Origin: Alloyangia mangrovi
GTDB taxonomy: Bacteria > Pseudomonadota > Alphaproteobacteria > Rhodobacterales > Rhodobacteraceae
Length of the DNA: 50,893 bases
Direction: 5' to 3'
NCBI RefSeq assembly: GCF_002300555.2
Contig: NZ_NTHN02000038.1
Location: forward strand, 1-50,893
Below are positions 8,426-47,896 of this stretch, one piece after another. The notes under the pieces were generated by a model. The model was given only the letters and a program-made list of their open reading frames with translations. It searched no databases and was not told the origin of the DNA. The stretch's first letter is position 1. The number at the start of each line of letters is the position of its first letter. The position numbers and the translations under genes are program-made.

Positions 8426-9378
8426 TGCTGCTGGTCCAGACCCTCGGAAAGCTCGGGCAGACGCTCGTCGTGCTGTTCATCGTCTCGGTTGCCACCTTCG
8501 GACTTCTGAAGCTGGCGCCGGGCGACCCGGTGCAGATCATGCTCGGCTCGGAATACTCGCAGGAGTCCTACGAGTCGCTCACCGCCGAAATGGGTCTGGA
8601 CCGGCCCTTCCTGGCGCAATACGCCGATTGGGCGCTGAACTTCGTGCAAGGCGACTGGGGCACCTCCTTTGTCGCCCGCACCGACATCTTCACCTATGCC
8701 TTCAAGGAGGCGCTGCCGGTGACGCTGACGCTGGCGAGCTTCTCGCTGGTCTTCGCGGTGCTGATCGGCGTGCCCCTGGGGGTGCTCTCGGCGGTCAAGA
8801 AGGACACCGCCTTCGACGCGGGCTCGGCGGTCTTTGCCCTGACCGGCACCGCGTTTCCGTCGTTCCTGCTCGGCATCCTGCTGATCTGGTTCTTCGGGGT
8901 GCGGCTCGGCTGGTTCCCGGTAATGGGCTATGTCTCGCCCTGGGAGGACTTCTGGACCGGGGTCTATCACATGATCCTGCCGGGGCTGACGCTGTCCACC
9001 TATTTCATCGCGATGATCACGCGCCTGACCCGCGCCACGCTGATCGAGGTGCTCGACCAGCCCTACATCGCCGCCGCACGCGCGCGGGGCGAGCCCGGCT
9101 GGCGGGTGATCTGGGTACACGGCGTGCGCAACATCGCCATGCCGCTGGTCACCATCCTCGGTCTGCAGCTCGGCACGCTGCTGCAGGGCACGGTGCTGAC
9201 CGAGACGGTGTTCAACCTGCCCGGCATCGGCCAGATGCTGACCTCGGCGGTGCTCGGGCGCGAGTACATGGTGGTGCAGGCGGGGGTGATGATGACCGCC
9301 TTCCTCTTCATCGGGGTCAACCTGCTGGTCGACCTCTCCTACCCGATCCTCGACCCCAGACTGAGAGACCGCAAATGA
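8425..9378 (+). CDS. ABC peptide transporter permease (DppB-like)
   Basis: This 317-aa inner-membrane permease has six predicted helices and the BPD_transp_1 fold. Family landmarks are the N-terminal LAPGDPVQIMLG, GDWGTSFVARTDI, and the EAA loop (AAARARGEPGWRVIWVHGVRNIAMPL) that docks to the ATPases, then ETVFNLPGIGQML. It partners with the DppC-like permease encoded next (ATGA overlap with its start at 9375). It is translationally coupled to the binding-protein gene. Confidence 0.93.
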   Translation: MLLVQTLGKLGQTLVVLFIVSVATFGLLKLAPGDPVQIMLGSEYSQESYESLTAEMGLDRPFLAQYADWALNFVQGDWGTSFVARTDIFTYAFKEALPVTLTLASFSLVFAVLIGVPLGVLSAVKKDTAFDAGSAVFALTGTAFPSFLLGILLIWFFGVRLGWFPVMGYVSPWEDFWTGVYHMILPGLTLSTYFIAMITRLTRATLIEVLDQPYIAAARARGEPGWRVIWVHGVRNIAMPLVTILGLQLGTLLQGTVLTETVFNLPGIGQMLTSAVLGREYMVVQAGVMMTAFLFIGVNLLVDLSYPILDPRLRDRK

Positions 9379-10283
9379 GCGCAGAGGCCACCAATGCCCC
9401 GGCCCCCGCGACGCTGCCGCCCGCCGGGCCCGCACCGCAGGCGCAGAGCCGCAAGCGCCGCTCGATCTTCGTGCGCCGCCCCTTCTTCACCGTCGCGCTG
9501 GTGATCGCCGCCGCCTACCTGCTGGCCGCCGCCTTCGCGCCCCATGTCGCCCCCTACGACCCGGTCCTTCAGTCGATGGACGCGATGATGCAGCCGCCCT
9601 CGGGCGCGCATCCGCTGGGCACCGACAGCTACGGGCAGGACATCCTGTCGCGGGTCATCTTCGGCGCCCGCTACGCGCTGGTGATCGGCATCTTCTCGGT
9701 GCTGATCGGCGCCGCCGGAGGTCTGGTGATCGGCCTTGCCGCCGGGCTCTCGGGCGGCTGGGTGGAATGGGCGCTGATGCGGCTCATCGATTCCATCCTC
9801 GCCCTGCCCTCGCTGATCCTCGCGGTCGCCTTCATCGCCATCCTCGGACAGGGCGTCGACAAGGTGGTGATCGCCGTGGGCCTGTCGATGGTCGGCCCCT
9901 TCTCGCGCACCGTCCGCGCCGACGTCATGCAGGTCAAGGTGCAGGGCTTCGTCGAGGCGGCGCACCTGATGTCGATCCCCTCGCTGCAGGTGATCCGCCG
10001 CCACATCCTGCCCAACGTGATCTTCCCGCTGGCCGTGCAGGTGACCATCCGCATCTCCGAAGCCATCCTCGTGTCGTCCTCGCTGTCGTTCCTCGGCATC
10101 GGCGTGACGCCCCCGACCCCCGACTGGGGGCTGATGATCGCCGAGGGGCGCGATTTCGTCAGCTTCGCGCCGTGGATGTCGGCCATGCCCGGCTTCGCGC
10201 TGGCGCTGCTGCTGATCGCGCTGTCGATCGTCGGCGACGGCATCCGCGAGGAATATGACCCCAAGAGCCGGAGGGGCGCATGA
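9375..10283 (+). CDS. ABC peptide transporter permease (DppC-like)
   Basis: This 302-aa second permease has an OppC N-terminal segment (FFTVALVIAAAYLL..FAPHVAPYDP), HPLGTDSYGQDILSRVIFGAR and an EAA loop (VEAAHLMSIPSLQVIRRHILPNV), followed by SLSFLGIGVTPPTPDWG, typical of DppC/OppC. Before the first helix lies a Pro/Ala-rich cytoplasmic tail of about 35 residues. The start ATG 9375 overlaps the dppB-like stop by 4 bp, and the stop overlaps the next ATPase gene by 4 bp, so all five transporter genes form one coupled operon. Confidence 0.93.
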   Translation: MSAEATNAPAPATLPPAGPAPQAQSRKRRSIFVRRPFFTVALVIAAAYLLAAAFAPHVAPYDPVLQSMDAMMQPPSGAHPLGTDSYGQDILSRVIFGARYALVIGIFSVLIGAAGGLVIGLAAGLSGGWVEWALMRLIDSILALPSLILAVAFIAILGQGVDKVVIAVGLSMVGPFSRTVRADVMQVKVQGFVEAAHLMSIPSLQVIRRHILPNVIFPLAVQVTIRISEAILVSSSLSFLGIGVTPPTPDWGLMIAEGRDFVSFAPWMSAMPGFALALLLIALSIVGDGIREEYDPKSRRGA

Positions 10284-11260
10284 TGCTGCAGCAGATCAAC
10301 GCCGAGGCGCTGCTGAGCGTCTCGGACCTGACCGTGCACCGCGGTCCGGCGAAGATCCTCGACCGGGTGAGCCTGTCGCTCGCCAAGGGTGAGACGCTGG
10401 CCCTCGTCGGCGAGAGCGGCGCGGGCAAATCGACCATCGCAACCGCGCTCATGCAGCTCCTCGACGGGGCCGAGATCGAAGGCACCGCCGATCTTCAAGG
10501 CGCGGGAGACCTGCTGTCGCTGCGCAAGCGCGAGATGGTCAAGCTGCGCGGCCAGCGCCTGTCGATGATCTTCCAGGACGCCGGCGCGGCGCTCAACCCG
10601 GCCTACACCGTGGGCCGCCAGCTGATCACCACGCTGCGCCGCAACCTCGGCCTCTCGCGCAGCGCGGCCCGCAGCCGCGCCATCGAGCTTTTCACCCAGG
10701 TCGGCATCAACGACGCCGAGGCGCGGCTCTCGGCCTTCCCGCACCAGCTCTCGGGCGGGATGCAGCAACGGGTCATGGTGGCCATCGCGCTCGCCTGCAA
10801 CCCCGATCTGCTGCTCGCCGACGAGCCGACCTCGGCGCTGGACGTGACCATCCAGGCGCAGATCATCCGGCTGATCCTGCAGCTCACCCGCGAGCGCGGC
10901 GCGAGCTGCATCTTCGTGCTGCATGATCTGGCGCTGGCCAGCCAGTCCTGCGACCGGATCGTCGTGCTCTACGCCGGGCAGGTGGTCGAATCCGGCCCCT
11001 CCGAGGAGGTGCTGAAGCGCCACCGGCACCCCTACACCCGCCAGCTCGAAAGCTGCGTGCTTGAGATCGGGCGCAAGGACCTGCAGGCGCCCGAGGGCAC
11101 CGTGCCCTCGCACGATCAGATGCCCGCCGGATGCCGCTTTGCCACCCGCTGCCCCCGCGCGCTGGACCGCTGCGCGCGCGAAGCGCCGCCGCTCACCCCC
11201 GCCGATCCCGCCCGCAGCGACGCGCGCGACCACCTCTTTGCCTGCTGGAACCCGGAATGA
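10280..11260 (+). CDS. ABC peptide transporter ATP-binding protein (DppD-like)
   Basis: This 326-aa ATPase shows Walker A GESGAGKS, signature LSGGMQQR, Walker B LLLADEPTSALD and the H-loop FVLHDLALA. The C-terminal oligopeptide-transporter extension carries the Cys motif CRFATRCPRALDRC, seen in DppD/OppD and linked to an iron-sulfur site in some members. It energises the permease pair encoded upstream together with the DppF-like ATPase downstream (ATGA overlap at 11257). Confidence 0.93.
   Translation: MMLQQINAEALLSVSDLTVHRGPAKILDRVSLSLAKGETLALVGESGAGKSTIATALMQLLDGAEIEGTADLQGAGDLLSLRKREMVKLRGQRLSMIFQDAGAALNPAYTVGRQLITTLRRNLGLSRSAARSRAIELFTQVGINDAEARLSAFPHQLSGGMQQRVMVAIALACNPDLLLADEPTSALDVTIQAQIIRLILQLTRERGASCIFVLHDLALASQSCDRIVVLYAGQVVESGPSEEVLKRHRHPYTRQLESCVLEIGRKDLQAPEGTVPSHDQMPAGCRFATRCPRALDRCAREAPPLTPADPARSDARDHLFACWNPE

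Positions 11261-32368: not shown

Positions 32369-32369
<1 letters not shown>
31965..32369 (-). CDS. Conserved hypothetical protein coupled to aspartate aminotransferase
   Basis: This 134-aa soluble protein is not recognised. The N-terminal half (MAGALPEFFFRTRDNGALVFRVD, then RRIEMTQIAVVNLAKGEVR) looks beta-rich, like a small anti-parallel sheet. The C-terminal half (about 60-134) is charged and helical (ALLARRSFDEMQRTIDQLNAAAQWAQ). Its ATG overlaps the stop of the aminotransferase by one base (TGATG), so it is translationally coupled and may work with it or be a housekeeping passenger. It converges with the LysR gene, 9 bp apart. Confidence 0.7.
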
Positions 32370-34359
<1,990 letters not shown>

Positions 34360-36159: not shown

Positions 36160-36933
36160 TCAGCGCAGCGCCGAGTCCGGAGCGCCCTCGGGACCGGGGA
36201 TGGGCACCAATTCGCCCACCATCATGTCATTGAGCTCGCGGAAGAGCTTGCGCGACATGGCGCGCAGGAAATCCCTGTAGCCCGAAGCCACCTCGACGAA
36301 GGCGCCCGGACCGTGTCGCACCTCGCCCTCGAAATATTCGACCACCCGCGGGTCCGAACCCATCACCGCCAGCCCGTTCACCGTCACCCCCTCGAAGGGG
36401 TAATGGGTGTAGGCCTGCTGCGGGCGGAAACCGTCGTTGGTGATCCCGTCCCCCGAGACATCGATCACCCGCCGCTCGCAGGCCGGGGCGGCCTCGAGGA
36501 TGCCGGCGCCGAAGCCGAGCGCATAGCCCATGGCAGTGGGATACCGGTTGTAGCTGCGCGGCGCGCTGAGCAGCCGCACCACCACGGCGTCGATCGTCGC
36601 CTCGTCGTGCAGCATGGTCCAGTCGAGCACCAGCTGCGACTGGTTGCGCCCGCTCCATTCGTAGGCGGAAAGCGCCACACTGCCACCGCCCTCGAGGATC
36701 GCCCGGCGCACGTCGGGATCGCGCAGCGCGCCGGCGAGTCCCTCCTTCTGCAACCGGTACTCCTGGTCGTCGACCGAGGACGACACGTCGAGAGCCAGCA
36801 GCAGCGCAAGCCGGCAGGAGGTCTCCTGCGCCCGTGCGGCGGAGCTGGGCAAGAGGCCCAGCCCCGCCGAAAGTCCCAGCGCGAGCCCCAGCCTCAGCCC
36901 CAGCGTCAGACCGCAGGCGAGACGCGCGCCCAT
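36160..36933 (-). CDS. DUF1194 (von Willebrand A-like) secreted protein
   Basis: This 257-aa exported protein has a signal peptide (1-35, ending ARA) and a vWA-like fold of the DUF1194 family. The MIDAS motif D49-V-S-S-S is followed by ALSAYEWSGRNQSQLVLDW, then RRVIDVSGDGITNDG. The family is found in Rhodobacterales and rhizobia with no assigned function; the MIDAS suggests metal-dependent protein binding in the periplasm. Start ATG 36933 lies 4 bp after the glyoxalase stop, so they are co-transcribed. A second DUF1194 gene lies at 47191. Confidence 0.85.
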   Translation of the reverse strand: MGARLACGLTLGLRLGLALGLSAGLGLLPSSAARAQETSCRLALLLALDVSSSVDDQEYRLQKEGLAGALRDPDVRRAILEGGGSVALSAYEWSGRNQSQLVLDWTMLHDEATIDAVVVRLLSAPRSYNRYPTAMGYALGFGAGILEAAPACERRVIDVSGDGITNDGFRPQQAYTHYPFEGVTVNGLAVMGSDPRVVEYFEGEVRHGPGAFVEVASGYRDFLRAMSRKLFRELNDMMVGELVPIPGPEGAPDSALR

Positions 36934-36937
36934 GGGG

Positions 36938-37372
36938 TTACCAGTGGCCGGTGTTGGGCATGCTCGCCCAGGGTTCGGCCGGCTCCTTGGCATCGCCCTG
37001 CTGCAGCAGCTCGATCGACACGTTGTCGGGCGAGCGCACGAAGGCCATGTGGCCGTCGCGCGGCGGGCGGTTGATCGTCACCCCGGCGTCCATGAGCGCC
37101 TGGCAGGCCGCGTAGATGTCCGGCACGGAATAGGCCAGGTGCCCGAAGTGCCGCGAGTCCGAGGGCAGCCCCTCGTCGCCATCCCAGTTGTAGGTAAGTT
37201 CCACGTCGGCGGTGCCATCGTCCTGATCCGGCGGGCAGAGGAAGACCAGGGTGAAGCGGCCCTTCTCGCTCTCCGTGCGGCGGCGCTCCTTCAGCCCCAG
37301 CAACTCGTAAAATGCGATGGATTTATCGAGATCTTTCACGCGAACCATGGTGTGCAGGTAGCGGATCGGCAT
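36938..37372 (-). CDS. gloA: Lactoylglutathione lyase (glyoxalase I)
   Basis: This 144-aa vicinal-oxygen-chelate enzyme converts the methylglyoxal-glutathione hemithioacetal to S-lactoylglutathione. Metal ligands are visible at His7 (LHTMVRV), Glu58 (VELTYNWD), His78 (HFGHLAY) and Glu121 (SIELLQ). The Asn in TYNWD and Gly-rich loop NWDGDEGLP fit nickel-type bacterial GloA. It is transcribed just before the DUF1194 gene with a 4-bp gap. Confidence 0.92.
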   Translation of the reverse strand: MPIRYLHTMVRVKDLDKSIAFYELLGLKERRRTESEKGRFTLVFLCPPDQDDGTADVELTYNWDGDEGLPSDSRHFGHLAYSVPDIYAACQALMDAGVTINRPPRDGHMAFVRSPDNVSIELLQQGDAKEPAEPWASMPNTGHW

Positions 37373-37449: not shown

Positions 37450-38895
37450 TCAGAAGCGCGATTTGAAGCCGAGGCTGAGGGCGAAGGTCTCGGTCTCGAA
37501 GCGGCTCACGTTGCTCTCGGAGCGCTCGGCGCTGAGATCGAGCACCGGCACGAAACCAGCATAATCGAGCTTTTCGAAGGCCACCTGCATCTCGGCCCGC
37601 CAGACCTCGTCCTCGCGCCCACCTGGCACCGGGAAGAGAACCCTGTAGTCGGGGTATCGGTGCTCGAAGGCAGAAAGCCCGAAGGACAGGCGCACCGGCC
37701 CCACCGGCGCGCCGGGCTCGTAGCCGAGCCGCAGCCCGCGGGTGTCGCGGGTGATCTGACCGTTCTCCGATTCCGCGGCGCCACCGATGAGCATGGCCGA
37801 AACCGTGCCCGGCGTGCCGAGGTCACGGATCACCCCAAGCTGGTAGCCAAAAGTGTCGACGTCGTTGTAGGCGCTCGTCGCATCCTGCTGGTGCTGCCAT
37901 GACAAGCCGCCGGTCAGCGCGGTGACCGCGCCCAGCGGCTGCACGAGGCTGACCGCGGCGCGGCGGTAGTCATAGCTGTGCTCCCCGCCCTGCCAGGCGC
38001 GGCCAAGCGTTGCACTTCCGGAGGCAACGGGGCCCTTCTCGCCCAGCTGGCGCCGGTGCTGCAGGCCGACCTCCAGCGAGGAGGCCCCGAAGTCGGAATT
38101 CTCGACGCTCGGCGCCTTGTCCCGCGCCTCCTCGCTCAGCCGGACCCGGCGCAGCGTACCGTATCCGCGCAGCGTGGTCTCGGACTTCGGCCCGCGCTGC
38201 ACCGCATAGCCCAGTGACAGCGCGCCGCGCGCGGAGAGCCCCGAGAGGGCCTGCGCCGAGGGTGAGAGAATGCCGACCAGCGGCAGCCCGTCGACGGTAC
38301 TGATCTCCTCCGAGGCGCCGCCGTTGACGTTCGACGAAGGGGCGGCCGAGAGCTCGAGCGACAGGCTGAGCCGCGACAGGTTGCGCAATGCCTTGTATTC
38401 GCGCCCCGCGCGCCGCCCGAGCGCCTCGCTGGGCACGTCCATCATTGCGCGGCGCATCCAGAGCTGCGACAGGAAGTAGCTCTCGTCGAGCGCATAGGCC
38501 GCCGCCATGACCCGCGCCGCCTCATGCCTCTGCACATCGGTCTTGGCATATCGCAGCGTCTGCCGGGCGGCCTTGCGCGCCTCGGCGGCATTGCCGCGGC
38601 GCAGCTCGGCCTGGGCGATGACGAAATGGCCGTAGGGATCGGAAGGATCGGCCCGCAGCAGCAGCCCGCCCAGCTCCGCCGCCAGCGCGTAATGCCCCGT
38701 CTGCACCGCCCGCAGCGCGGCGATGCGCATCTGCGCGGCGCTCAGGGTCATGCCGCCAAGCGCCGAGGCCGCTTCGGAGGAGACGGGCGCGGAGGTGGTC
38801 GGCGCGGACGGCTCAGCCAGCGCCCCATCCTGACAGGTGAAAAACAGGGCGCCGGAAACGGCGAGCGCCGCATGGCGCAAGCTACGCAGTTCCAT
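37450..38895 (-). CDS. Surface lipoprotein assembly modulator (Slam, DUF560-like)
   Basis: This 481-aa outer-membrane protein has a signal peptide (about 1-28), an N-terminal helical TPR-like domain (about 45-165; AQAELRRGNAAEARKAARQTLRYAKTD) and a C-terminal beta-barrel of many amphipathic strands (about 170-481), ending in Phe (GFKSRF), the usual outer-membrane signature. This architecture is that of Slam proteins, which move specific lipoproteins to the cell surface in Neisseria and relatives. It starts 9 bp after the stop of a lipoprotein gene with a TbpB-like barrel domain, the usual gene pair. Identity rests on architecture and neighbour; it could also be another TPR-porin family. Confidence 0.78.
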   Translation of the reverse strand: MELRSLRHAALAVSGALFFTCQDGALAEPSAPTTSAPVSSEAASALGGMTLSAAQMRIAALRAVQTGHYALAAELGGLLLRADPSDPYGHFVIAQAELRRGNAAEARKAARQTLRYAKTDVQRHEAARVMAAAYALDESYFLSQLWMRRAMMDVPSEALGRRAGREYKALRNLSRLSLSLELSAAPSSNVNGGASEEISTVDGLPLVGILSPSAQALSGLSARGALSLGYAVQRGPKSETTLRGYGTLRRVRLSEEARDKAPSVENSDFGASSLEVGLQHRRQLGEKGPVASGSATLGRAWQGGEHSYDYRRAAVSLVQPLGAVTALTGGLSWQHQQDATSAYNDVDTFGYQLGVIRDLGTPGTVSAMLIGGAAESENGQITRDTRGLRLGYEPGAPVGPVRLSFGLSAFEHRYPDYRVLFPVPGGREDEVWRAEMQVAFEKLDYAGFVPVLDLSAERSESNVSRFETETFALSLGFKSRF

Positions 38896-38904
38896 CGTCG
38901 GGCC

Positions 38905-39978
38905 TTAGTGGGCGACGAGGCTGCAGATGTCTTCGCGTGCGCCGGACTTGCCGCATTGGGTCAGGACAAACATGCCGACTTCCTTCACGTCGTAATCACC
39001 GTCCTCTCCGAAGAGAGAAGAGATCGACCACGAGAGTTCGGTATTGCCCGCAGCATAGGCCGCGCCTTCGCCGCCGAAGACACCGCTGAACGTCCCTGCG
39101 GCAGAATCGTCGGTGAAGACGCCATTGCCGGCAAACTCACCGATCTCGTCGATCACCCCCTCTTCGAGGATGATGTTGCCGGCACTGGTGACCCCGCTGA
39201 CGCCTTCGGGCCGGACGTCGCGCGGATCGTACATCTTCCGGTTCAGGATTTGTCCGTTAAGCGCGGCTTCGGCAAAGTTGACATTTAGGAAGATCACGCC
39301 GGTCATCGGAACCGGCTGCCCCGGCAGGTCGAGTTCTGCATAATCATCCGGCAGCGTGCCGACCGGTTTCAGATCCAGACCATCGCGGGTGACCACGTTC
39401 GTCACCGCGGCATAGTTCCCAACGTAGGAGACCTGCCCCGACGCAGGATCGCTCTCGAAGTCGGGCGGATCAAAAGCTCCGACACGGCGATAGTAGCCGT
39501 CCTGGAAGACCGTATTGAACTGGCCACCGTCACCTACGGCAACCGCCGAGACACTCTCGTCAGGGCTCATGCCGCCAAGCGCCAGGAAAAATCGATCCAG
39601 CGGATCCTCCTGCACCGAGTAGGCCACGTAGTCGTCGAGCCCCATCACGTCGGTGAGCCGGTCGTTGCGTTCGTAGACGGCACTGACCGGGCTGGTGTCC
39701 AATCCGTTGATCTGAACGGTGAGCGCGCTCATGTCGGAGGCAAAGCTGAAGCTGGCGACGGTGGCCCCGATGTCCTCGGGAGTCCTCGTGCTGCCGGAAT
39801 CCACCGTGTCGTCAGTCCCGTCGGTGCCGTCCTCGTCGGTCCCGTCGGCGCCATCACTGCTGGTGTCCTCGCACGCCTGCAGCGGGTTGTCCCGGACACA
39901 ATCGTCGTTGCTGCTGCCGCTGCTCCCGCAGCCCGCCAAAAGCCCGGCAAAAGCCGCGGCGATCCAGACCTTCTCCAT
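38905..39978 (-). CDS. Putative Slam-dependent surface lipoprotein (TbpB-barrel-like)
   Basis: This 357-aa lipoprotein has the lipobox L14-A-G-C17. After it comes a flexible acidic linker with DGTD repeats (about 38-60), then a beta-rich region. The C-terminal half (about 225-340) shows FLNVNFAEAALNGQI, GNGVFTDDSAAGTFSGVFGGEGAAYAAGNTEL, the pattern of the eight-stranded barrel of transferrin-binding-protein-like lipoproteins (F.G.F.G..A.E..G). Four Cys besides Cys17 are visible, near both ends. It is upstream of, and 9 bp from, the Slam-like gene, so it is the probable cargo. The ligand (iron carrier, heme or other) cannot be deduced; no TonB receptor is nearby. Confidence 0.78.
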   Translation of the reverse strand: MEKVWIAAAFAGLLAGCGSSGSSNDDCVRDNPLQACEDTSSDGADGTDEDGTDGTDDTVDSGSTRTPEDIGATVASFSFASDMSALTVQINGLDTSPVSAVYERNDRLTDVMGLDDYVAYSVQEDPLDRFFLALGGMSPDESVSAVAVGDGGQFNTVFQDGYYRRVGAFDPPDFESDPASGQVSYVGNYAAVTNVVTRDGLDLKPVGTLPDDYAELDLPGQPVPMTGVIFLNVNFAEAALNGQILNRKMYDPRDVRPEGVSGVTSAGNIILEEGVIDEIGEFAGNGVFTDDSAAGTFSGVFGGEGAAYAAGNTELSWSISSLFGEDGDYDVKEVGMFVLTQCGKSGAREDICSLVAH

Positions 39979-40226: not shown

Positions 40227-41057
40227 ATGCGCCAGTATCTCGACGCCCTGCGCACCGTGCGCGATCTCGGCACCCGTTCGACCGACCGCACCGGCACCGG
40301 TACCATCTCCTATTTCGGGATGCAGTGCCGCTATCCGCTCGCCGAGGGCTTCCCGCTGGTGACCACCAAGAAGCTGCACCTGCGCTCGATCATCCACGAG
40401 CTGCTGTGGTTCCTCGCCGGTGACACCAACATCAAATATCTCAAGGACAACGGCGTCTCGATCTGGGACGAATGGGCCGACGAGAACGGCGATCTCGGGC
40501 CGGTCTACGGCCACCAGTGGCGGCACTTCCCGACGATCCGCGAGGAGATCGGCGACGACGGCGCCTCTCGCGTGCTGCTTGGCGAGGTCGACCAGATCGC
40601 CCAGCTCGTCGAGATGATCAAGACCAGCCCCGACAGCCGCCGCCTCATCGTCTCGGCCTGGAACCCCGGCGAGATCGGGCAGATGGCCCTGCCGCCGTGC
40701 CACACGCTCTGGCAGGTGCGGATCATCGGCGGCAAGCTGCACCTGCAGCTCTACCAGCGCTCGGCCGACATGTTCCTCGGCGTGCCCTTCAACATCGCCT
40801 CCTACGCGCTGCTGACGGTGATGCTGGCGCATGTGACCGGCTACGAGCCCGGCGATTTCATCCATTCGATCGGGGACGCGCATATTTACCTCAACCACCT
40901 CGAGCAGGTGGAGACGCAGCTTTCGCGCACGCCCCATGCGCTGCCGACGCTCAAGCTGGCGCGCGACGTGCCTTCGCTCTTCGACTTCCGTTTCGAAGAT
41001 TTCATCATCGAGAACTACGCGCCCGAGCCCGCGATCAAGGCCCCGGTGGCCGTCTGA
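40227..41057 (+). CDS. thyA: Thymidylate synthase
   Basis: This 276-aa ThyA methylates dUMP to dTMP using methylene-tetrahydrofolate. Motifs: [11 protein letters not shown], the catalytic Cys in [10 protein letters not shown], the nucleotide-binding [19 protein letters not shown], and [15 protein letters not shown] 40227 follows GGAGG (40217-40221). The stop overlaps the DHFR start by one base (TGATG), a common thyA-folA pair. The 248 bp between it and the divergent lipoprotein gene contains no other gene that I can support. Confidence 0.96.
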
Positions 41058-41530: not shown

Positions 41531-41666
41531 CGGCGACACGCCACGCCGATCGAAAATATCGCCAAACGACAACCTTTACCAAATAGCCATTTTACTTGAT
41601 TGAAATCCATTCCTGATAAAGGATTGGGTTTGGATATCTTTTGTTTAATTGGTGGAGTAATCGGTA

Positions 41667-42740
41667 ATGGCAAATCTCGACCTCAATGTCAAAATCCTGG
41701 CGGACCGTGTCAGGGCGCATTCCGAAACCATTCAAACCGAAGAGGCGGTGAAAACCTCGGTGATCCTGCCCTTCCTGCAGAGCCTCGGCTATGATGTTTT
41801 CAACCCTCTTGAGGTCATCCCCGAGTTCACCGCTGATGCGGTCGGCAAGAAGGGGGAGAAGGTCGACTATGCCATCGTCCATAACGCCGAGGTCAGCGTT
41901 CTCATAGAATGCAAGGGCCTGAACACCCAGCTCAACGAAAAGCATCTGTCGCAGCTCTTCCGATATTTCACCGTTACCAATGCCAAATTCGCCATTCTGA
42001 CAAATGGTCGCGAATACAGGTTCTATTCCGATCTGGAAGAGCCCAACAAGCTGGAACGGCGCCCCTTCTTTACATTTGACCTTCTGGACTACGCCAACAG
42101 CGCCCTCGCGGAACTCGCCAAATTTGAGAAATCCAGCTTCGACGTCGAAAGCATTTTGCAGCAGGCCGAACGGCTGAAGTATGTATCCGCAGTGAAATCG
42201 TTGCTTCTCGCCTGGATCGAAGAGCCTCCGGAAACCCTGACGAAGAGCATTGCCAATGTGGTCCACGACGGGCGCATCAACTCTGCCGTCCGCAACACCG
42301 TCAGTTCGGCAATTTCGGTAGCTTTCAAGGAAATCATTCGCGACCGGCTTCGCGAGCGCCTTTCTTCCGCGCTGGAGGATGGCCCCATGCAGGGTGGCGC
42401 CGAGGACGTAGATGTCGCCGACGCCGACATAATAACGACCGAGGAAGAAATCGAAGGGTGGCTCACGGTGAAGAGCCTGCTTCGTGGTGCACTCAGCACG
42501 GACCGGGTCGTCATGCGCGACGCCAAGAGCTACTGCGCCATCCTTCTGGACGACAACAATCGCAAGCCTCTCGTGCGCCTGCACTTCAACCGCACGCAAA
42601 AATACATCGGACTTTTCGACGGAGACAAGGAAGAGCGGGTCCCGATCGAGAACCTCGATGACATGCTGGGGCTGAAGGACCGCATACTGGCGACGGCGAG
42701 CAAATACGGCGAAGCGTCGCGAAAGGTGGCGAACGGCTGA
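41667..42740 (+). CDS. Orphan type I restriction HsdR N-terminal-like nuclease
   Basis: This 357-aa protein carries the HSDR_N PD-(D/E)xK-type fold near its N-terminus: EEAVKTSVILPFLQSLGYDVFNPLEVIPEF, KVDYAIV (Asp) and VLIECKG (the E-x-K pair), about residues 25-95, then LTNGREYRFYSDL, also typical. The C-terminal half (about 165-357) is helical then beta-rich (VRLHFNRTQKYIGLFD). It has no helicase, methylase or specificity subunit beside it. Composition is more AT-rich than its neighbours and the 136-bp upstream gap is strongly AT-rich, so horizontal acquisition is likely. Possible role in defence or DNA repair; not shown. Confidence 0.78.
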   Translation: MANLDLNVKILADRVRAHSETIQTEEAVKTSVILPFLQSLGYDVFNPLEVIPEFTADAVGKKGEKVDYAIVHNAEVSVLIECKGLNTQLNEKHLSQLFRYFTVTNAKFAILTNGREYRFYSDLEEPNKLERRPFFTFDLLDYANSALAELAKFEKSSFDVESILQQAERLKYVSAVKSLLLAWIEEPPETLTKSIANVVHDGRINSAVRNTVSSAISVAFKEIIRDRLRERLSSALEDGPMQGGAEDVDVADADIITTEEEIEGWLTVKSLLRGALSTDRVVMRDAKSYCAILLDDNNRKPLVRLHFNRTQKYIGLFDGDKEERVPIENLDDMLGLKDRILATASKYGEASRKVANG

Positions 42741-43182
42741 TTGCGGTGGCTCTCCGACGGCGGTCATCCGACCCCCGGCAGCCCGCGTCGCTAAACGCCG
42801 TCGCCCCGCAGATCGGTCCACGCGGGGTACCCGGATGGCGCTGAGTCGCATCTCCTTGCCTGTCCGAGCGCCGAAGCGCCCTTGCCGCCCCCTCACGGGG
42901 CCGTGTTAATCCTGACAATGACGCTGCGTCAGCATCTCGAAAAAGGTTCCAAGTCCCTGCAATCATGAGCCAGTTTCCGCCTGTCGGCACTCACGCTCCG
43001 GCTGCATTTGGCCGAGCCCCCTCCAAGAGGTCGTTTTTTCGTGGTGGTTCCGCCACAGCACGTTCATGTGAGCACTATGTGTGGATCGTTCCGGACGAAA
43101 GTTTGGTTGTATCCTCAGTCACACGCTCCGAAACGAGCCTGGACAACACATGATGAAACATGAAGAAATTGGAGCAGACCCA
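42741..43182. other. 442-bp intergenic region, no supported gene
   Basis: Between the HsdR-N-like gene and the barrel protein. A 62-codon frame (42965-43153) has no SD and an ordinary random composition, so I reject it. The segment includes a GC-rich part (42741-42900), a T6 run (43033-43038), and the leader of the barrel gene with SD GGAG (43170-43173). No tRNA-like cloverleaf, att repeat or terminator was found. Confidence 0.5.
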
Positions 43183-47190: not shown

Positions 47191-47896
47191 ATGCGTCCTC
47201 TCGTCTTGAGCCTCGCCCTTGCCTGCCTCGCCGGTCCCGCCCTCGCTCAGGACACCGATCTGGAACTCGTTCTTCTGGCCGACGCCTCGGGCTCGATCAC
47301 GCCCGGAGAGCTGCAGTTCCAGCGCGAGGGCTACGCCCTCGCGATCACCGATCCCGAGGTGCTCGCCGTCATCGCAGGCACCGCCTATGGCCATATCGCC
47401 GTGACCTACGTGGAATGGGCCGCCAACCAGGCGCAGGTGGTGGATTGGACGCTGATCGACGGGCCCGAGGCAGCTCGGGGCTTTGCCGCCGCGCTACTGG
47501 ACGAGCCACGCCAGGCCTACGGGCGCAACGCCATCGGCGCGGCGCTGCTCGAGGGGCTGCGGCTGATGGAGGAGAACGAGTTCGAGGGCTGGCGCCGGGT
47601 GATCGACTTCTCGGGCGACAGCGCCAACAGCTGGTCCGGTCCGAGCATCGCGGATGCCCGCGCGAAGGTGCTGCAGGCCGGTGTGACGATCAATGCCTTG
47701 CCGATCCTTCCGATGGGCGATCCCGGCCGCGCCCAGGGGGGGGCTCGAGACACTCTACGAGGAGCTGATCATCGGCGGCACCGGCGCCTTCGTGGTCACC
47801 GCCGAAAGCCGCGACAGCTTTGCCGAAGCGGTGAAGAAGAAGCTCATCCTCGAGATCTCCGCCCTGCCCCGAGAGACTTACGCGGCGGCGGAGTAA
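47191..47896 (+). CDS. DUF1194 (vWA-like) secreted protein, frameshifted at G8
   Basis: This second DUF1194 protein in the window would be 234 aa after repair. The signal peptide is 1-19 (ALA), then the MIDAS motif in LLADASGSITPGE, AVTYVEWAANQAQVVDW and RVIDFSGDSANSWSG, matching the pattern of the 36160 protein. The frame breaks at G8 (47736-47743). With seven bases it reads GRAQGGLETLYEELIIGGTGAF and ends at 47896 (LPRETYAAAE), as expected of the family. It lies 41 bp before a metallopeptidase-like lipoprotein gene on the same strand and may be in one unit. Confidence 0.85.

Follow-up and report, generated by a model that had tools for sequence, protein, structure and literature searches.

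A stretch of 50,893 nucleotides of Alloyangia mangrovi DNA (contig NZ_NTHN02000038.1), referred to here in its full length as the window, carries a gene for a lipoprotein and, directly behind it, a gene for an outer-membrane protein resembling the Slam translocons. The two genes very likely form a type 11 secretion system (T11SS) cassette, composed of a Slam and its client, that behaves as an exchanged unit beside a glyoxalase gene in Roseobacter-type bacteria. The genes are paired in other genomes of the family, and their products resemble the Slam and client families; the client would be translocated by the Slam-like protein and exposed on the cell surface. An initial annotation, made from the sequence alone, had described the pair as having a lipobox and a DGTD linker in the first product and a gap of 9 nucleotides between the genes. 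All of these features were found. The two open reading frames (ORFs) have the coordinates given there and are on the minus strand, the lipobox reads LAGC, and the gap lies between the client stop and the Slam start.

Pairing and co-inheritance of Slam and client

The survey set comprised 248 genomes of the family. Slam was found in 125 of them (135 matches), and a search with a single client sequence gave 45 matches in 44 of these 125 Slam genomes. All but one of the 45 client matches were on the same strand and less than 700 nucleotides upstream of a Slam relative (70 of the 135 Slam matches were compared), and the unpaired one is the other half of a client split across two contigs (G100). 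The adjacency of client and Slam exceeds chance. Forty-three loci were read individually: the window, two further Alloyangia loci, and 40 regions hand-picked from the 135 Slam matches, with 17 of the 43 chosen for having no detected client. In 41 of the 43 (40 by pattern and L076 by hand), the gene immediately preceding Slam encodes a lipobox-bearing lipoprotein of about 300–390 amino acids, though few of these lipoproteins match the Pfam barrel models well. No client was found upstream of Slam in L072 and L077, nor, by profile, at L154, a further Slam locus. Absence of the client from most loci, as detection by a single sequence in 44 of 125 genomes might imply, was ruled out by this reading. 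The 41 clients were initially assigned by eye to two classes, A (28, window included) and B (13). Single linkage unites all of them even at E 1e-10, the classes are homologous from end to end (hhalign 99.9%), and in the client tree they form opposite sides of one branch with a support of 87.

Trees were built without the two clientless loci, leaving 41. On the Slam tree the client class requires 2 changes, compared with a mean of 11.3 after shuffling (0 of 500 shuffles as low); 2 changes are also required on the tree of the TPR part and on a careful Slam tree of 37 rows from which long rows were omitted, and 3 on the tree of the barrel part. On the ParE tree built for these 41 genomes the class requires 12 changes, which is shuffle-like (431 of 500 as low), and the well-supported ParE branches alone force 7 (protein) or 10 (codon positions 1 and 2). 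A poorly resolved tree of flanking genes (39 rows) likewise requires 12. Comparisons free of the class assignment gave the same picture. Placing 12 well-supported client splits takes 22 changes on the Slam tree and 49 on the ParE tree; for 13 Slam splits, of which one probably entered twice, once from each side of the root, the totals are 23 on the client tree and 49 on the ParE tree. The Slam tree and the client tree match one another, and both are at odds with ParE. Inside each class, the distances of Slam and client remained correlated when flank distances were removed (partial r 0.38 for 27 A loci and 0.52 for 12 B loci; 0 of 2000 permutations as high, in a test that leaves some relatedness in). 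Single pairs of loci illustrate the conflict: L076 and L100 share 91% identity in ParE and 87% in glyoxalase but 29% in Slam and 31% in client, and L090 and L100 share 90% in ParE and 51% in both Slam and client. With 2 class changes on the Slam tree against 12 on ParE, Slam and client thus seem to have been exchanged jointly, as a unit, at a single chromosomal slot.

Among named relatives, the nearest that were found are two genomes of Alloyangia pacifica (L002 and L003). The window Slam is 84 and 75–76% identical to theirs at the protein level, and the client just 55 and 52%. In DNA, identity to the two genomes is 62% for the client, 85 and 77% for Slam and 85–95% for the flanking genes, returning to 94–95% in both at the thymidylate synthase edge.

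The main rival to exchange is the loss of one old cassette in many lineages. Under such hidden paralogy, ancestors had both an A and a B cassette, at this slot or at other sites, different lineages then dropped either A or B, and nothing passed between species; we consider this doubtful. Several observations favor it and weigh against exchange. Multiple substantial Slam matches occur in G129 (three), G159 (two) and G163 (two, sharing a contig), the class B Slams sit at two positions on the Slam tree, and the genome from which the window comes encodes a second and different Slam. Opposed to these, a second Slam match was found in none of the 43 regions, the ParE tree would need 7–12 class changes, and splits inside class A, too, are more compatible with the Slam tree than with ParE (4 versus 9 changes for a 13-row split and 3 versus 5 for a 5-row split). 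The second Slam of the genome belongs to a Slam–lipoprotein pair of its own (L134, C119:12000-31000, at 8881-10167(-) and 10173-11063(-)). As in the window, Slam is directly downstream of the lipoprotein; unlike the window pair, this pair scores above the curated thresholds for SlipAM, TPR_Slam and TbpB_B_D, and it differs in genome position and in its client, which is without the NP[F/L] motif described below.

The two proteins and their proposed route

The identification of a Slam-like transporter with a TbpB-like lipoprotein, proposed in the initial annotation, is supported by the family matches of relatives, by a profile search of PDB sequences led by fHbp, by a low-confidence fold model and by the co-inheritance described above. 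Against SlipAM (PF04575) the window Slam scored 18.4 bits where the cut-off is 22, the sub-threshold match covering residues 407-466; 39 of the 43 aligned Slam members match this family at E<=1 (best 3.1e-9). The C-terminal Phe that had been pointed out is present in 43 of 43 aligned sequences, window included. An N-terminal TPR domain is predicted from the AlphaFold2 model, which has helices at residues 53-136 (predicted local distance difference test, pLDDT, 73–90 for 51-130), and from matches of TPR_19 and TPR_14, each in 26 of the 43 members (E<=1); the Slam-specific TPR model PF24575 had no match in the window Slam. The alignment given to AlphaFold2 held three sequences, those of the window, L002 and L003, and the barrel modeled from it has 13 strands at low confidence where 14 were expected. 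Searched alone against PDB sequences, the window Slam had chance-level matches only. The second gene might encode a different kind of outer-membrane barrel (resembling porins, a helper of BAM or a polysaccharide exporter of the BcsC/PelB type), with the lipoprotein periplasmic and facing inward. The low-confidence barrel, for which a Foldseek search of little use listed porins, BAM, BcsC and PelBC, and the sub-threshold SlipAM score of the window protein tell in favor of such a barrel, whereas the SlipAM matches in 39 of 43 members and the likeness of the client to TbpB, fHbp and hemophilin make it quite improbable.

The client N-terminus, MEKVWIAAAFAGLLAGC, is predicted to be a lipoprotein signal peptide with the lipobox LAGC and Cys17, followed by a DGTD-rich linker; signal peptides were identified by eye or by pattern. 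A C-terminal motif of the TbpB type had also been noted for this protein. Alone, the window client matched no TbpB/fHbp-type or other barrel family in Pfam at E<=10, and it scored 10 bits against NCBIfam slam_lipo (cut-off 80). Its relatives gave more: at E<=1, the 28 class A clients matched TbpB_B_D (14, best 6.2e-7), slam_lipo (20, best 6.3e-7) and FHBP_C (7), and the 13 class B clients matched FHBP_C (7, best 1.1e-6) and TbpB_B_D (1). A class A profile run against PDB sequences returned 15 rows, all within the barrel part, of which 13 were fHbp, HpuA or hemophilin, counting two rows named just "lipoprotein" that we take to be fHbp; fHbp was on top (best E 0.0017), with HpuA and hemophilin no stronger than 0.04. 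The class B profile (A3) had a single match, at E 0.77. By this search and by fold comparison of a low-confidence model, the client resembles TbpB, fHbp and hemophilin. Together these results argue for a C-terminal eight-strand barrel of the TbpB/fHbp kind. The noted motif is of this kind, but the window protein by itself has no Pfam match of that type. A role of the client as a hemophilin-like haemophore that binds haem or iron seems unlikely. The absence of a TonB receptor or iron gene beside the pair, as annotated, agrees with the ORFs read, among which none was recognized, no domain scan having been aimed at them.

A short motif, NP[F/L], follows the lipidated Cys in many clients. In 32 of 41 clients, from both classes, the pattern [NQ]P[FLWIVH] occurs no more than 16 residues after the Cys, in front of a highly variable linker; the NPL copy of the window falls just beyond this range. 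In the L002 and L003 clients an NPLQ segment is duplicated in tandem after the lipid-anchored Cys, and the window has one copy. A pattern search of the 248 genomes gave 33 matches, consisting of 10 Slam clients (eight and G240, all read, and G080, placed by coordinates only), two other lipoproteins (G177 and G167), 20 proteins without a lipobox and one unread match (the second of G014). As a control, other lipoproteins in the fetched DNA had the motif in 0 of 7 cases, a small set in which several are doubtful and one is the client of the second pair; the filter of this control, applied to the clients, recovered 20 of 41, 18 of them with the motif. The motif is only a lead, and it may be a sorting tag read by Slam or by the lipoprotein route.

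The proposed mechanism borrows its translocation steps from the model of Neisseria Slam1, as given in the consulted parts of its description (PMC9090332). The client would be synthesized with a signal peptide for lipoproteins, receive its lipid at Cys17 and then reach the outer membrane. With its TPR domain in the periplasm, the Slam-like protein would bind the unfolded client through the client's C-terminal barrel, and the membrane barrel would pass the client, which would fold outside as a lipid-anchored protein with its N-terminal domain displayed on the flexible acidic linker. Exchange at the glyoxalase slot would probably proceed by recombination within the conserved flanks, and there may be selection for surface variation. 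We give about an even chance to the fuller proposal that the slot is a fixed exchange site, where whole cassettes of translocon and client swap between species, lipoprotein and dedicated exporter changing jointly, while the flanks stay, diversifying a surface antigen under pressure perhaps from phages, predators or hosts, with NP[F/L] maybe serving as the sorting tag.

The chromosomal slot and its neighbors

The features of the locus are collected in Table 1. A scan for promoters and terminators gave nothing exceeding shuffles.

Table 1. Features of the Slam–client locus and its neighbors (window coordinates)
Feature	Coordinates	Strand	Basis
Slam-like outer-membrane protein (481 aa, last residue Phe)	37450..38895	-	ORF and sub-threshold SlipAM match
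TPR domain of Slam-like protein (predicted), residues ~50-137	38485..38748	-	AlphaFold2 helices, TPR matches
Predicted membrane barrel of Slam-like protein, residues ~176-481	37453..38370	-	Sub-threshold SlipAM, low-confidence model
Client lipoprotein, 357 aa, class A	38905..39978	-	ORF, lipobox, family matches of class A
Client signal peptide and lipid-anchored Cys17 (predicted)	39928..39978	-	Sequence reading
Client acidic D/G/T linker with NPL copy of NP[F/L] motif	39754..39927	-	Sequence
Client C-terminal beta-barrel domain (predicted), residues ~181-342	38953..39438	-	
Glyoxalase, fixed neighbor, outside the system	36938..37372	-	PF00903
DUF1194 gene, linkage independent of Slam	36160..36933	-	PF06707, 230.5 bits
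Thymidylate synthase, opposite edge of the slot	40227..41057	+	ORF, named by eye

Glyoxalase matches (E<=1e-20) occur in 241 of the 248 genomes, compared with 125 for Slam, and DUF1194 occurs in 198. Grossman et al. have considered DUF1194 as a possible cargo of the T11SS (2025; PMC12282271, parts consulted), and it would then be the true cargo or partner of the system. The gene is a neighbor in the window and, in that paper, in 102 of 145 loci, and the genome-level association, though weak, leans the expected way (gene present in 106 of the 125 genomes with Slam and in 92 of the 123 others; Fisher p 0.058). Around glyoxalase itself, DUF1194 adjoins in 25 of the 43 loci with Slam (or 25 of 40, counting just those where glyoxalase was detected) versus 15 of 19 Slam-free loci (Fisher p 0.15 for 25/43 versus 15/19), the latter taken from genomes ranking high in the glyoxalase list, with L154 left out as it has a Slam. 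The gene is also retained in G088, a genome of the same genus, where DUF1194 and glyoxalase stand beside an ORF judged by eye to encode a thymidylate synthase of the flavin-dependent type, and neither Slam nor client gave a match at the site. DUF1194 adjoins glyoxalase without Slam about as often as with it, and linkage is therefore no evidence for a T11SS cargo; DUF1194 was rejected as a partner on these grounds, and its role as cargo is very unlikely. A second DUF1194-like frame lies at 47191-47770(+) of the window, with 36% identity to the first frame across the matched part, and the whole genome has four DUF1194 matches.

Two other places in the window deserve mention. An aspartate-aminotransferase-like gene (by eye) at 32369-33571(-) appears to be split by a frameshift near 33270 into two overlapping ORFs in different frames, reflecting either a sequencing error or a real break. 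In the stretch that separates the gene for dihydrofolate reductase from one for an outer-membrane barrel (41600-42830), DNA identity to Alloyangia is about 46–62% where alignable, in surroundings of mostly 85–95%, and a 357-amino-acid ORF there, 41667-42740(+), is restriction-endonuclease-like by eye.

Relation to published systems

Reports exist on related loci, and the statements that follow rest on the parts of those papers that were consulted. The presence of Slams across all Proteobacteria clades was reported in 2017 (PMC5449769). Grossman et al. have described a marine cluster 3 T11SS locus in Rhodobacteraceae and Roseobacteraceae, with thymidylate synthase, glyoxalase and DUF1194 as neighbors and a barrel-predicted lipoprotein in 10 of 11 loci (PMC12282271, Fig. 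8). The window pair is a fresh example of this locus type already in print, and the initial expectation that client and ligand would be little explored in a Rhodobacterales bacterium is not supported, given these two reports. The published locus and the window share the bacterial families, the neighbors, a Slam-type outer-membrane protein and a lipoprotein with a predicted C-terminal eight-strand barrel (282–375 amino acids in print, 357 here). They differ in the thymidylate synthase, which is flavin-dependent in the published locus and of ThyA type in the window. In searches of the literature on Slam/DUF560, T11SS, surface lipoproteins and DUF1194, that paper was the only one found to treat the locus, and its consulted parts make no mention of exchange as a cassette. 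Neisseria Slam1/TbpB, Slam2/HpuA and their relatives (PMC5449769, PMC9090332) resemble the window pair in combining TPR and barrel in the translocon and, in many species, in having a TbpB-like lipoprotein gene adjoining the Slam gene; the window differs in that no TonB-dependent receptor was recognized alongside and in that its similarity falls under the curated cut-offs.

The loci bear on a published doubt as to whether marine T11SS have adjacent cargo. With TbpBBD in just 8 of 145 loci, Grossman et al. considered the cargo to be seldom near, too divergent, or lost (PMC12282271, in the same parts), whereas a client adjoins Slam in 41 of the 43 loci read here. These loci favor the "too divergent" option, with a client that is usually there and in many cases gives poor scores with domain models. 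The linkage argument for DUF1194 as cargo is weakened. Overall, the 41 natural Slam–client pairs, in two classes, provide material with which the acceptance of clients by Slams could be tested through partner swaps.
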